From positions 1 to 64,000 of the forward strand of contig DASPVQ010000002.1 in the NCBI GenBank assembly GCA_035622275.1: 64,000 nt of DNA. The letters run 5' to 3'. Position 1 is the first letter of the stretch, and each line of letters opens with the position of its first letter. Below, in pieces: positions 21,020 through 23,686 of the stretch. This stretch comes from Thermoplasmata archaeon (lineage in GTDB: Archaea > Thermoplasmatota > Thermoplasmata > Lutacidiplasmatales > UBA184). The translations under genes were made by a program, and so were the position numbers. The notes under the pieces are model-generated. The model had not been told where the DNA came from. It did no database searches and saw only the letters and a program-made list of their open reading frames with translations.

Positions 21020-21844
21020 GTGACGGCCGCGATGGAGTTCGCCTGGCAGGAGGAGGTCCCGGACGCGGAAAACTTCGGCCCCGGCTCCGTCGTGCTCTCC
21101 GCCTTTCCGAGCGCGGGACTCGCGACGATCATCGCGGGTCACTACATGGTCCGCGCGCTCAAGCTGCCGCGGATCGGGAGGTTCGAGTCGCCCGACCTCG
21201 CGCCCGTCGCGGTCGTGCAGGGCGGCGAGGTGCACCCGACGGTGCGGGCCTACGGCCGCCGTGACCTCGCGCTGGTCCTCTCCGAGTTCCCGCCGAGCCC
21301 CGCGCAGGCGAACGCGATCGCCCGCACGATCCTGGCGACCGCCGCGCGACGTCGCGCGCGGGCGATCATCTGCCTCGAGGGGGTCGTTCCGCATCCGGAA
21401 GGAGAGACCGAGGCCGCCGATGCGACCGAGGGCGGCGACGAGACCGGCGCCGAGCAGATCTGGGTGACGTACGCCCGGCGGGATCCGGCGTTCGCCGCTC
21501 CGTTCGCGGCGGCCAGGGCCCGGATCCTGGAGGAAGGCGTGATCGGCGGGGTCTCGGGGGCGCTCCTCGTCCAGGGGATCGGTGGCGCGGTGCCGGTCGC
21601 GGCGCTCCTGGTGAGCGCACGCATCGCCGAGGGCCTCCCGGACCACCGGGCCGGGGCTGCGCTGATCGAGACGCTCGATCGTCTTCTGCCCGAGCTCCAG
21701 ATCGACACGCTGCCGCTGCGGGCCCAGGCCGAGCAGATCGAGAAAGCGCTGAGGGCCGTGATCAAGTCGCAGCGGGCGGGCCCGCCCGAGCCCGGCGGCA
21801 CCGGCCCGGAGAGCGGACCGCCGTCGCCCGAGATGTACGGCTAG
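21020..21844 (+). CDS. PAC2 (proteasome assembly chaperone) family protein
   Basis: 274 residues of the archaeal PAC2/PbaB-like family. These relatives of eukaryotic proteasome assembly chaperones bind proteasome alpha rings or act as ATP-independent chaperones. Typical are the GSVVLSAFPSAGLATIIAGHYMVRAL segment (about 22-46) and the later ISGLLLVEG-like GVSGALLVQGIGGAVPVAALLV. An acidic insertion at about 127-142 and a Pro/Gly tail are peculiar to this copy. GTG at 21020 or ATG four codons later could be the start. No proteasome genes are nearby. Confidence 0.87.
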   Translation: MTAAMEFAWQEEVPDAENFGPGSVVLSAFPSAGLATIIAGHYMVRALKLPRIGRFESPDLAPVAVVQGGEVHPTVRAYGRRDLALVLSEFPPSPAQANAIARTILATAARRRARAIICLEGVVPHPEGETEAADATEGGDETGAEQIWVTYARRDPAFAAPFAAARARILEEGVIGGVSGALLVQGIGGAVPVAALLVSARIAEGLPDHRAGAALIETLDRLLPELQIDTLPLRAQAEQIEKALRAVIKSQRAGPPEPGGTGPESGPPSPEMYG

Positions 21845-21857
21845 CGCCGCCGCGGGC

Positions 21858-22025
21858 TCATGCGAACGACTCGGTGTACGAGAGCAGGTAGAGCGCGCCG
21901 GCGATCATCGCCGCGATCGCCGCGAAGATCGCGAGCGGGTTGGACGAGAACCAGACCACGGTCGCAGCGATCGCGACCACCGGCAGCACGAACAGCGCGA
22001 GAACCGTGAACCACCGGCCGTCCAT
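21858..22025 (-). CDS. Small two-helix membrane protein (55 aa)
   Basis: Hypothetical 55-residue protein with two predicted membrane helices (about residues 6-25 and 30-50) separated by a short SSNP turn. No family recognised. Support for a real gene is the ATG start, the strong TATA-like AGGTTTAAGA about 30 nt upstream (22051-22060), and coding-like base use. It lies just after the PAC2-family gene (opposite strand) and just after the FtsZ-like gene (same strand, with its own promoter). Confidence 0.7.
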   Translation of the reverse strand: MDGRWFTVLALFVLPVVAIAATVVWFSSNPLAIFAAIAAMIAGALYLLSYTESFA

Positions 22026-22089: not shown

Positions 22090-23010
22090 CTAGAGTGTCG
22101 GCGGAGGTCGGACCTCGGCGTCCACCTCGAACGTCAGCTCGGCTTCCGCCCCTGCGCGCGCCGCGGGCAGGATCGGCGGCAGCCCGGCGGGGAGCGGCGG
22201 CGCCGGCGGGACGATCCCGAGCGGCGTGGCCGCCGCGTCCGGCAGCTGGCTCATCGCCACGAGCTCGGCCGCGTGGGCCAGCTGGACCGCCTCGATCATC
22301 GCCTCGACCGGCGCGACGAAGGCGGTCTCGATGTGCTCGCGGATCAGATCGGCCCAGTGGCGGGGCACGCCGGCGAACGACCGGCCTCCGGCCCCCCGCG
22401 CGAGGCTCTCGTTGTCGAGGATCGTGAGACGGGCCTGGCCGCGCTCGTGGCGGTCGACGAACGACGGGACGAGCTGGAGGCGGCCGATCGCCCGGTCCGC
22501 GAGCGCCCGTCGCTCGCCCTCGCAGCGGAACGGCTTGATCACGAACGCGCTGACGACCTCGGCCTGCCGGCACGCGACATCGAGGACGTGCGGGAACGCG
22601 CCGCTGCCCGCGCCTCCGCCGAGGCTGCCGACGAGGATCACGAACGTGGCTCCTCGGAACACCCGCTCGAGCGCCGGTTCGGCCGCGCGCGCGAGCAGCC
22701 CTCCGACGAACGGCGAGCCGCCCGTGTCGGTCTCGATGCCGGTGTCCGGCCCGAGGTAGATTCGCCGATCGAACTCCTCGAACCGCTGGACCTGGGGATC
22801 GCAGTTGATCGCGACGGTCTCGACGTGGCGGACATGCTGGCGGGCGATCTGGGCTGCGACGCGGACCGCGCCGCCGCCGACGGCGACCAGGACGAAGCGG
22901 ACGTCCTGGCCGAGCCTCAGGTGTTCGGCCCACGACTCCGCCGGGCCGTCGTCCGGTCCGGCGGCCGGATCTCGATCGCTCACTCCGTGCTCGGCCTCGT
23001 AGCTTCCCAC
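22090..23010 (-). CDS. Divergent FtsZ/tubulin-superfamily GTPase-like protein
   Basis: 306 residues from GTG 23010 (GTG 22983 is the alternative, 297 residues). The N-terminal nucleotide-binding half matches FtsZ: a VRFVLVAVGGGA first loop (about 37-48), ETVAINCDPQ (FtsZ INTDAQ), and FVILVGSLGGGAGSGAFP (tubulin signature, 123-140; canonical GGGTGTG). A V.KPFRCEGERR strand/loop follows. The C-terminal half is not FtsZ-like: no T7 NxDxxD catalytic loop and no normal C-domain, then a Pro-rich tail from about residue 262. It is encoded 38 bp after a tandem RHH regulator. It could be a membrane-remodelling or regulatory FtsZ relative; GTP hydrolysis in a polymer is doubtful. Confidence 0.8.
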   Translation of the reverse strand: MGSYEAEHGVSDRDPAAGPDDGPAESWAEHLRLGQDVRFVLVAVGGGAVRVAAQIARQHVRHVETVAINCDPQVQRFEEFDRRIYLGPDTGIETDTGGSPFVGGLLARAAEPALERVFRGATFVILVGSLGGGAGSGAFPHVLDVACRQAEVVSAFVIKPFRCEGERRALADRAIGRLQLVPSFVDRHERGQARLTILDNESLARGAGGRSFAGVPRHWADLIREHIETAFVAPVEAMIEAVQLAHAAELVAMSQLPDAAATPLGIVPPAPPLPAGLPPILPAARAGAEAELTFEVDAEVRPPPTL

Positions 23011-23048
23011 AACCCACCCCGTTGCTGCATGTCGACCGTGCCGCCCGC

Positions 23049-23549
23049 CTACCGACCGACGACCCCCTTGCGCTCCAGGTCCTTCGCGCTGTCCTGGAGG
23101 GCGCCCGCCTGCGCCCGGCTCTCGACGGCCTCTCGCACGGTGGCCCGGGCGCGCGCCGTCAGCTCCTGGACCTTCAGCTCGGCCTCGCCGCGCCGGACGA
23201 TCTCGGCGAGGAGGTCCCTCACCGGCCGGCCGTTGGCGACGTGCCGCGCGTAGGTCTCGAAGACGGCGTACTCGTCCGGGCGCAGCCGCACGGGGACCTC
23301 GATGTAGCCCTCGGCGTCCACGGGGGGCGACGGTGCGGTCGACAGGGCACGGGAGCGCAGGAACGCGTGCAGCGCCGCCCGCACGAGCTCCGACCGGCTC
23401 TCGAACTCGCCGTTCGCGACGAACGAGTCGACCAGTCGAAGCTCCTTGCGGTTGCACCGTAGGGCGATGCGCGCGTCCTCCTCTTCCGTCGGGCCGCGGC
23501 CGGGACCCCGTGGGGGTACGCGAGCGCGGTCCGGTGCCTTGTCGAACAC
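23049..23549 (-). CDS. Ribbon-helix-helix DNA-binding protein with two RHH-like units
   Basis: 166 residues, GTG start. The first RHH unit (about 26-65) reads ARIALRCNRKELRLVDSFV then FESRSELVRAALHAFL. A second unit-like repeat (about 82-120) reads YIEVPVRLRPDEYAVFETYARHVAN then RPVRDLLAEIVRRG. A C-terminal helix of about 25 residues follows. A tandem RHH could bind DNA as a monomeric pair or use the second unit as a ligand or oligomer domain. It sits directly upstream of the FtsZ-like gene, a layout that recalls the haloarchaeal cdrS-ftsZ2 operon (known case), so a cell-division regulator is a reasonable inference. Confidence 0.82.
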   Translation of the reverse strand: MFDKAPDRARVPPRGPGRGPTEEEDARIALRCNRKELRLVDSFVANGEFESRSELVRAALHAFLRSRALSTAPSPPVDAEGYIEVPVRLRPDEYAVFETYARHVANGRPVRDLLAEIVRRGEAELKVQELTARARATVREAVESRAQAGALQDSAKDLERKGVVGR

Positions 23550-23577: not shown

Positions 23578-23585
23578 TACTTAAA
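23578..23585 (-). promoter_or_regulatory. TATA box of the RHH/FtsZ-like operon
   Basis: TTTAAGTA on the minus strand, about 30-35 nt before the GTG start. Several GTCGAA heptamer copies lie further upstream. Confidence 0.6.
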
Positions 23586-23646
23586 CAAGTCGATTCCCGG
23601 CTGACGGCAAAGTCCCGGTGCATCGTCGAGCCCAATTTTCTGACGT

Positions 23647-23686
23647 GTCGAACAAATACAGAAGGCCGTCGAACGGAGCGTCGAAT
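23647..23686. repeat. Cluster of three GTCGAA(C/T) heptamers upstream of the RHH gene
   Basis: GTCGAAC at 23647 and 23668 and GTCGAAT at 23680 (plus-strand reading), spaced 21 and 12 bp and so close to helical phasing. A further GTCGAAC overlaps the RHH start codon (23541). They lie in an AT-richer 195 bp gap with no gene and could be operator half-sites for the RHH protein. TCGA is common in GC-rich DNA, so chance is possible. Confidence 0.35.

Follow-up and report, generated by a model that had tools for sequence, protein, structure and literature searches.

A half-length FtsZ-like GTPase encoded behind a ribbon-helix-helix regulator in Lutacidiplasmatales, with short FtsZs in further families of Thermoplasmata

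FtsZ is understood as a two-surface machine: the GTP bound by one subunit meets the T7 loop of its neighbour, and the active site is thereby completed. What could an FtsZ do that has kept only one of these surfaces? The question is raised by a gene in a 64,000-nucleotide stretch of DNA from a Thermoplasmata archaeon (contig DASPVQ010000002.1, positions 1 to 64,000; hereafter the window). The gene lies in a minus-strand series in which a ribbon-helix-helix (RHH) regulator is followed after 38 nt by the short FtsZ and after a further 64 nt by a 55-aa mini-protein:

23049..23549, minus strand: RHH (CopG/CdrS-like) regulator of 166 aa with a GTG start, assigned from RHH_1, the CdrS model, profile comparison, alignment and a structural model
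22090..23010, minus strand: short FtsZ-like GTPase of 306 aa, assigned from PF00091, a loop census, AlphaFold, Foldseek and family alignments
21858..22025, minus strand: 55-aa mini-protein with two hydrophobic helices, MDGRWFTVLALF...YLLSYTESFA, assigned from conserved position, codon pattern and hydropathy

A convergent PAC2-like gene (21020-21844, plus strand) adjoins the module in the window and likewise in many relatives.

The short FtsZ gene most likely starts at GTG 23010 and ends with the stop codon at 22090-22092. This start was preferred to the alternative GTG at 22983 because the Shine-Dalgarno-like GGGGTGGG closely precedes it and most relatives are arranged similarly. The initial annotation had described a truncated FtsZ-like protein, and this description was borne out. 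The product scored 45.7 bits against Pfam Tubulin/FtsZ (PF00091; cut-off 33) and 77 bits against TIGR00065 FtsZ (cut-off 295), aligning with profile positions 17-161 of 353. The loop census revealed that T1 (AVGGGAVR), T2 (AINCDPQ), T4 (GGGAGSG) and T6 (LDNESL) were kept; T3 and, in part, T1 have changed in the window family. The T7 motif NxDxxD was absent from the protein and from all aligned relatives, and 62 residues follow the T7 column, compared with 100-130 in full-length FtsZ. All complete window-family members of named genomes measured 294-331 aa; the truncation is therefore no frameshift, frame or assembly error, and no C-terminal domain appeared on start or frame correction. Pocket residues were invariant within the family, with a mean column identity of 49-63%.

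An AlphaFold model of the short FtsZ, built with 36 family sequences, had pLDDT values mostly >90 across the GTPase core. The chain runs from the GTPase half through a long H7 helix (residues 211-253) into a Pro-rich disordered linker, and closes with the peptide AELTFEV, which is conserved in the family alignments. The disordered tail comprises approximately 55 residues, and the model contains no second (C-terminal) domain. Foldseek matched FtsZ crystal structures over approximately 195 columns of about 305 residues (E ~1e-12), with an rmsd of ~2.1 A to S. aureus FtsZ. With PF00091 above its cut-off and this structural match, the protein is a member of the FtsZ/tubulin superfamily that has neither the T7 loop nor the C-terminal domain of canonical FtsZ. 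Its sequence shows that it has retained the GTP pocket and lost the bottom surface formed by T7 and the C-terminal domain. The earlier suggestion that it could bind GTP without hydrolysing it by itself agrees with the loop census.

The initial annotation had also read two RHH-like units in the regulator. The first unit was supported by a near-threshold match: it scored 17.4 bits against RHH_1, slightly below the cut-off of 20.5, and the best NCBIfam model was CdrS (23.3 bits; cut-off 100). The window RHH profile matched other RHH genes with an E of 2e-12. Its alignment with the RHHs of other short FtsZs spanned both repeats (score 75, 99 columns), that with the RHHs of long FtsZs a single repeat (score 41, 44 columns). 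Two helix-helix pairs were present in the structural model (pLDDT 82, pTM 0.37), at 33-44/51-69 and at 90-102/109 onward; the latter pair runs on into a long helix, and in the alignment a conserved helical tail ending in DLERKGVVGR extends past the DNA-binding units. Foldseek returned no significant fold match for this model, and weak matches of ParD type. Two RHH units in one chain are likely from the model and the profile alignment; owing to the pTM and the lack of a significant fold match, the second unit is graded as likely and not as proved.

The gene pair was conserved in relatives, as the initial annotation had proposed to check: among named loci with enough flanking sequence, the RHH gene lay directly upstream of the short FtsZ in 58 of 58. 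A mini-membrane gene followed on the same strand in 54 of the 58 family loci; the gap was usually no more than about 120 nt and measured 0.3-1.2 kb in several. Its changes were distributed over codon positions 1, 2 and 3 as 35, 22 and 43%, consistent with coding sequence. Upstream of the regulator, the following elements were recognized:

23668..23674, minus strand: second upstream GTTCGAC copy, approximately 20 nt more distant; about half of the relatives have it
23641..23654, minus strand: promoter element TGTTCGACACGTCA, a putative operator, approximately 103 nt 5' of the RHH start
23578..23585, minus strand: TATA-like box TTTAAGTA, at -36 from the RHH start
23540..23548, minus strand: TGTTCGACA over the RHH start codon (GTG TTC GAC A), a putative second operator site

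The conserved element TTGTTCGACACGTCAG lies approximately 103 nt before the RHH start, and a TGTTCGACA-like core was found in 50 of 50 family loci. TTTAWGTA stood at -36/-35 of the RHH start in 46 of 50 relatives, and GTTCGAC at +2 of the start in all 50. Conservation of the start-codon copy may partly reflect the encoded MFD in a GC-rich genome. The promoter element together with the start-codon copy suggests autoregulation by the RHH protein as the natural reading. In the genome, the exact TGTTCGACACGTCA occurred as a single copy, at the RHH promoter. Near-exact copies on G000:C7 were considered as regulon targets and rejected, because they lie inside an aminotransferase-like ORF. The third gene and the promoter element, like the class-wide spread of short FtsZs described below, go beyond the initial annotation.

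The relatives that carry names, among them SubAcS, AcS and UBA184, are Thermoplasmata MAGs of Ca. Lutacidiplasmatales, which has approximately 69% GC (PMC9287336); the GC content of the window is 66-76%. These carriers of the gene set are soil archaea. The host genome (97% complete) carries four FtsZ-superfamily genes: L001, L002, L003 and the window gene. A search for canonical FtsZ elsewhere in this genome found two, L001 and L002, both with T7 and the C-terminal domain. L003 is a divergent full-length FtsZ directly behind its own 121-aa tandem RHH. SepF is present, and ESCRT-III gave no match in this genome. The L003 pair fits cdrS-ftsZ2 better than the window pair does, and the window pair is therefore a second RHH-FtsZ locus, in agreement with the earlier proposal, separate from the L003 pair and from both canonical genes. 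Also in this genome, an inverted repeat CGTCAGACAA / TTGTCTGACG lies in the promoter of L003's cdrS-like RHH gene (L003:1030-1058), and CGTCTGACAA in that of the canonical ftsZ L002 (L002:1331-1337). From these sequences, the L003 regulator may control ftsZ L002.

CetZ proteins have a full C-terminal domain, unlike the short FtsZ, and membership among them was ruled out because a PDB search with the window profile found FtsZ structures and not CetZ structures. The likeness is that CetZs, too, are FtsZ/tubulin-family proteins which archaea have in addition to FtsZ1 and FtsZ2 (PMC9856176). The cdrS-ftsZ2 locus of Euryarchaeota (PMC7439475, PMC8406309) resembles the window pair in that an RHH regulator gene lies directly 5' of an FtsZ-family gene and is probably co-transcribed with it. 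CdrS, however, is a short protein containing a single RHH unit, and its FtsZ2 partner has full length, whereas the window regulator is probably tandem and its FtsZ has no T7 or C-terminal domain. The regulator was not accepted as CdrS at 23.3 bits, below the model's cut-off although this was its best model, nor the FtsZ as FtsZ2, being truncated and on a long separate branch. With canonical archaeal FtsZ1 and FtsZ2 (PMC8178401), the short FtsZ shares the GTPase fold, the nucleotide loops and a linker ending in a conserved peptide. It differs in having no T7 or C-terminal domain and in its end peptide, which is AELTFEV and not the SepF-binding GID type of archaeal FtsZ given there. FtsZl1 and FtsZl2 (Makarova and Koonin 2010, PMC2875224) are likewise divergent superfamily members beside conventional FtsZ, and FtsZl1 is without elements required for standard filaments. 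FtsZl1, however, carries an additional helical domain besides a coiled coil and is found among other neighbours, and FtsZl2 has a 300-aa extension. Membership in either was ruled out by a Pfam Tubulin_2 score of 13.5 bits, below the cut-off of 27, and by the disordered tail present instead. The passages found in open-licence papers on CdrS, SepF, FtsZ/tubulin evolution, FtsZ-like families and Lutacidiplasmatales contained no description of a half-length FtsZ behind an RHH gene.

The short FtsZ was detected in 60 of 71 sampled window-family genomes of at least 80% completeness, representing all seven genera, at one copy per genome; one genome holds two pieces on two contigs. Across the class, the window profile weakly matched two other kinds of gene. 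One is full-length FtsZ, in most cases preceded by a tandem RHH of the TERITVRIP type; the other is the short FtsZ of further families, roughly 230-290 aa long and behind another tandem RHH. Strong short matches to the other-family short-FtsZ profile were obtained in families f5, f7, f8, f19, f26, f27, f29 and f30; with the window family, short FtsZs span nine families. Outside the window family, 40 short-FtsZ loci were read; every one had an RHH gene upstream, and the mini-membrane gene was absent beside the short FtsZs of other families. The short FtsZs examined kept T1, T2, T4 and T6 and had all lost T7; T4 was degenerate in two (GGEAGTE in L090, GGHAGTE in L195). The phylogeny that the initial annotation had called for set the window family apart on a long separate branch of the GTPase tree, and neither supported nor rejected one clade of all short FtsZs (p-AU 0.166). 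The case for their kinship is made by the RHH profiles and by the truncation that they have in common. MCR was carried by the tested genomes of f7, f19, f26, f27 and f29, which are therefore methanogens, and not by those of f1, f5 and f8.

A contig scan with window-type patterns returned Thermoplasmata-type loci (three labelled bacterium, one Euryarchaeota) and one weak Lachnospiraceae match (E 3e-6). A viral origin of the window short FtsZ was rejected, as IMG/VR held no window-type relative. About 75 IMG/VR contigs (L213-L287), many freshwater by look, encode an FtsZ of ~310 aa that is approximately 40% identical to the short-FtsZ query, mostly with T7 and without the long tail; these may be phage genes or bacterial carry-over. 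A same-strand gene with VGLVINPIAGMGGSVGLKGTDG, which resembles ATP-NAD kinase relatives, comes next after the short FtsZ in several other families (L136, L138, L140, L146, L183, L184, L186 and L187). In family f16, several 99%-complete single-contig genomes of genus g31 (G127 and others) gave no FtsZ match at E 1e-30, and G127 gave no SepF or Snf7/ESCRT-III match either.

Family f7, which we infer to be Methanomethylophilaceae from MCR and position, was sampled by scanning 18 genomes with PF00091, eight of which are single contigs at 98-99% completeness. Each of the 18 contained one short FtsZ, the copy of G114 (L195) being that with the degenerate T4. A second PF00091 match was present in 13 of the 18, marginally so in two. 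Of these second genes, eight were read (L188-L194, L196): they kept C-domain-like sequence and had no T7 NxDxxD, and in most the nucleotide pocket was eroded, for instance by loss of T2; an RHH gene also stood ahead of six. No T7-bearing FtsZ was found in the 18 genomes by the PF00091 scan and the reading of eight second genes. Among eight f7 genomes tested, ESCRT-III was absent from all and SepF was clear in two. The short FtsZ and its degenerate paralogue look like complementary loss from one ancestral protein. A possible but rather unlikely reading concerns the whole class: a GTP-binding-half FtsZ, always behind a tandem RHH, would work without T7 and the C-terminal domain, and in f7 would be the main FtsZ, as if split over two genes beside a degenerate partner.

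How a one-surface FtsZ may act can be considered from the filament. Hydrolysis of GTP by FtsZ takes place in a composite site. A new monomer is proposed to attach, top surface first and with GTP bound, to the filament end where T7 is exposed, and mutants of the bottom interface are toxic (PMC8936486). With the top kept and the bottom missing, the short FtsZ should join the growing end and halt growth. We tentatively favour, at somewhat below even confidence, the reading that the window pair is the Lutacidiplasmatales version of a widespread Thermoplasmata pair of tandem RHH and GTP-half FtsZ, whose short FtsZ caps filament ends. Its GTP-loaded top surface would dock on the exposed T7 end, the proposed growing end, of full-length filaments, and the next subunit would be blocked, since the short FtsZ offers no bottom surface. 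As a dose-dependent cap it would tune the division ring. The amount made would be set by the RHH protein through the putative operators that precede or overlap the start codon of its own gene, and the Pro-rich linker and conserved end peptide, perhaps with the mini-membrane protein, could tether the short FtsZ to the membrane or divisome. Capping is favoured because the GTPase half stands alone in a confident model, T7 is lost, all complete family members are short, operon and promoter are conserved, and two canonical FtsZs and SepF are available as targets in the host genome. Counted against it are the missing mini-membrane gene in other families, the altered T3 and parts of T1 in the window family, and other targets that the RHH protein could have. 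Since f7 yielded no T7-bearing FtsZ, capping cannot be the sole role there. Confidence in capping is held at this level mainly because f7 would need its degenerate long paralogue or a new interface as partner; for genomes that also have full-length FtsZ, it is the leading hypothesis.

The strict conservation of the mini-membrane gene in the window family, the unusually long H7 helix and the place of the short form as main FtsZ in f7 could instead point to polymerisation or clustering via a new interface (H7 or the tail), alone or on the mini-membrane protein, giving a GTP-dependent membrane scaffold apart from the Z-ring. This is rather unlikely, as the bottom surface required for standard filament contacts is missing and other families have no mini-membrane gene beside their short FtsZs. 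The linkage of the pair in every locus with enough flank (58/58, and 40/40 elsewhere) and the long conserved helical tail of the RHH chain would also suit a short FtsZ that senses GTP and alters the DNA binding of its RHH partner, the pair forming a nucleotide-responsive switch for division genes. Operon linkage equally fits plain co-expression, as in cdrS-ftsZ2, and the exact operator at the pair's own promoter only leaves no regulon visible; we consider such a switch unlikely. Gene order and the putative start-overlapping operator resemble RHH antitoxin operons, e.g. ParD, to which the regulator model had its weak matches. A toxin-antitoxin-like pair, with the RHH as antitoxin and autorepressor and the short FtsZ as a division-blocking growth inhibitor, is nevertheless very unlikely given one copy per genome, vertical spread through 60 of 71 family genomes of at least 80% completeness, no mobile context seen and none in viral contigs. 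The degenerate nucleotide loops of L090 and L195 would be expected of a decaying, functionless paralogue, an explanation made highly improbable by the invariant pocket residues and column identities of the window family, the conserved operon and promoter, and the presence in nine families.

RHH-linked FtsZ was already known; what is unusual here is the loss of half the FtsZ protein, with short forms through a class. Either a conserved one-surface FtsZ serves the cell as its own regulator of filament ends, or it is a sign that FtsZ can work in another way. As no complete FtsZ was found in f7, FtsZ may not always need its second half, and the division mode of such archaea is directly testable.
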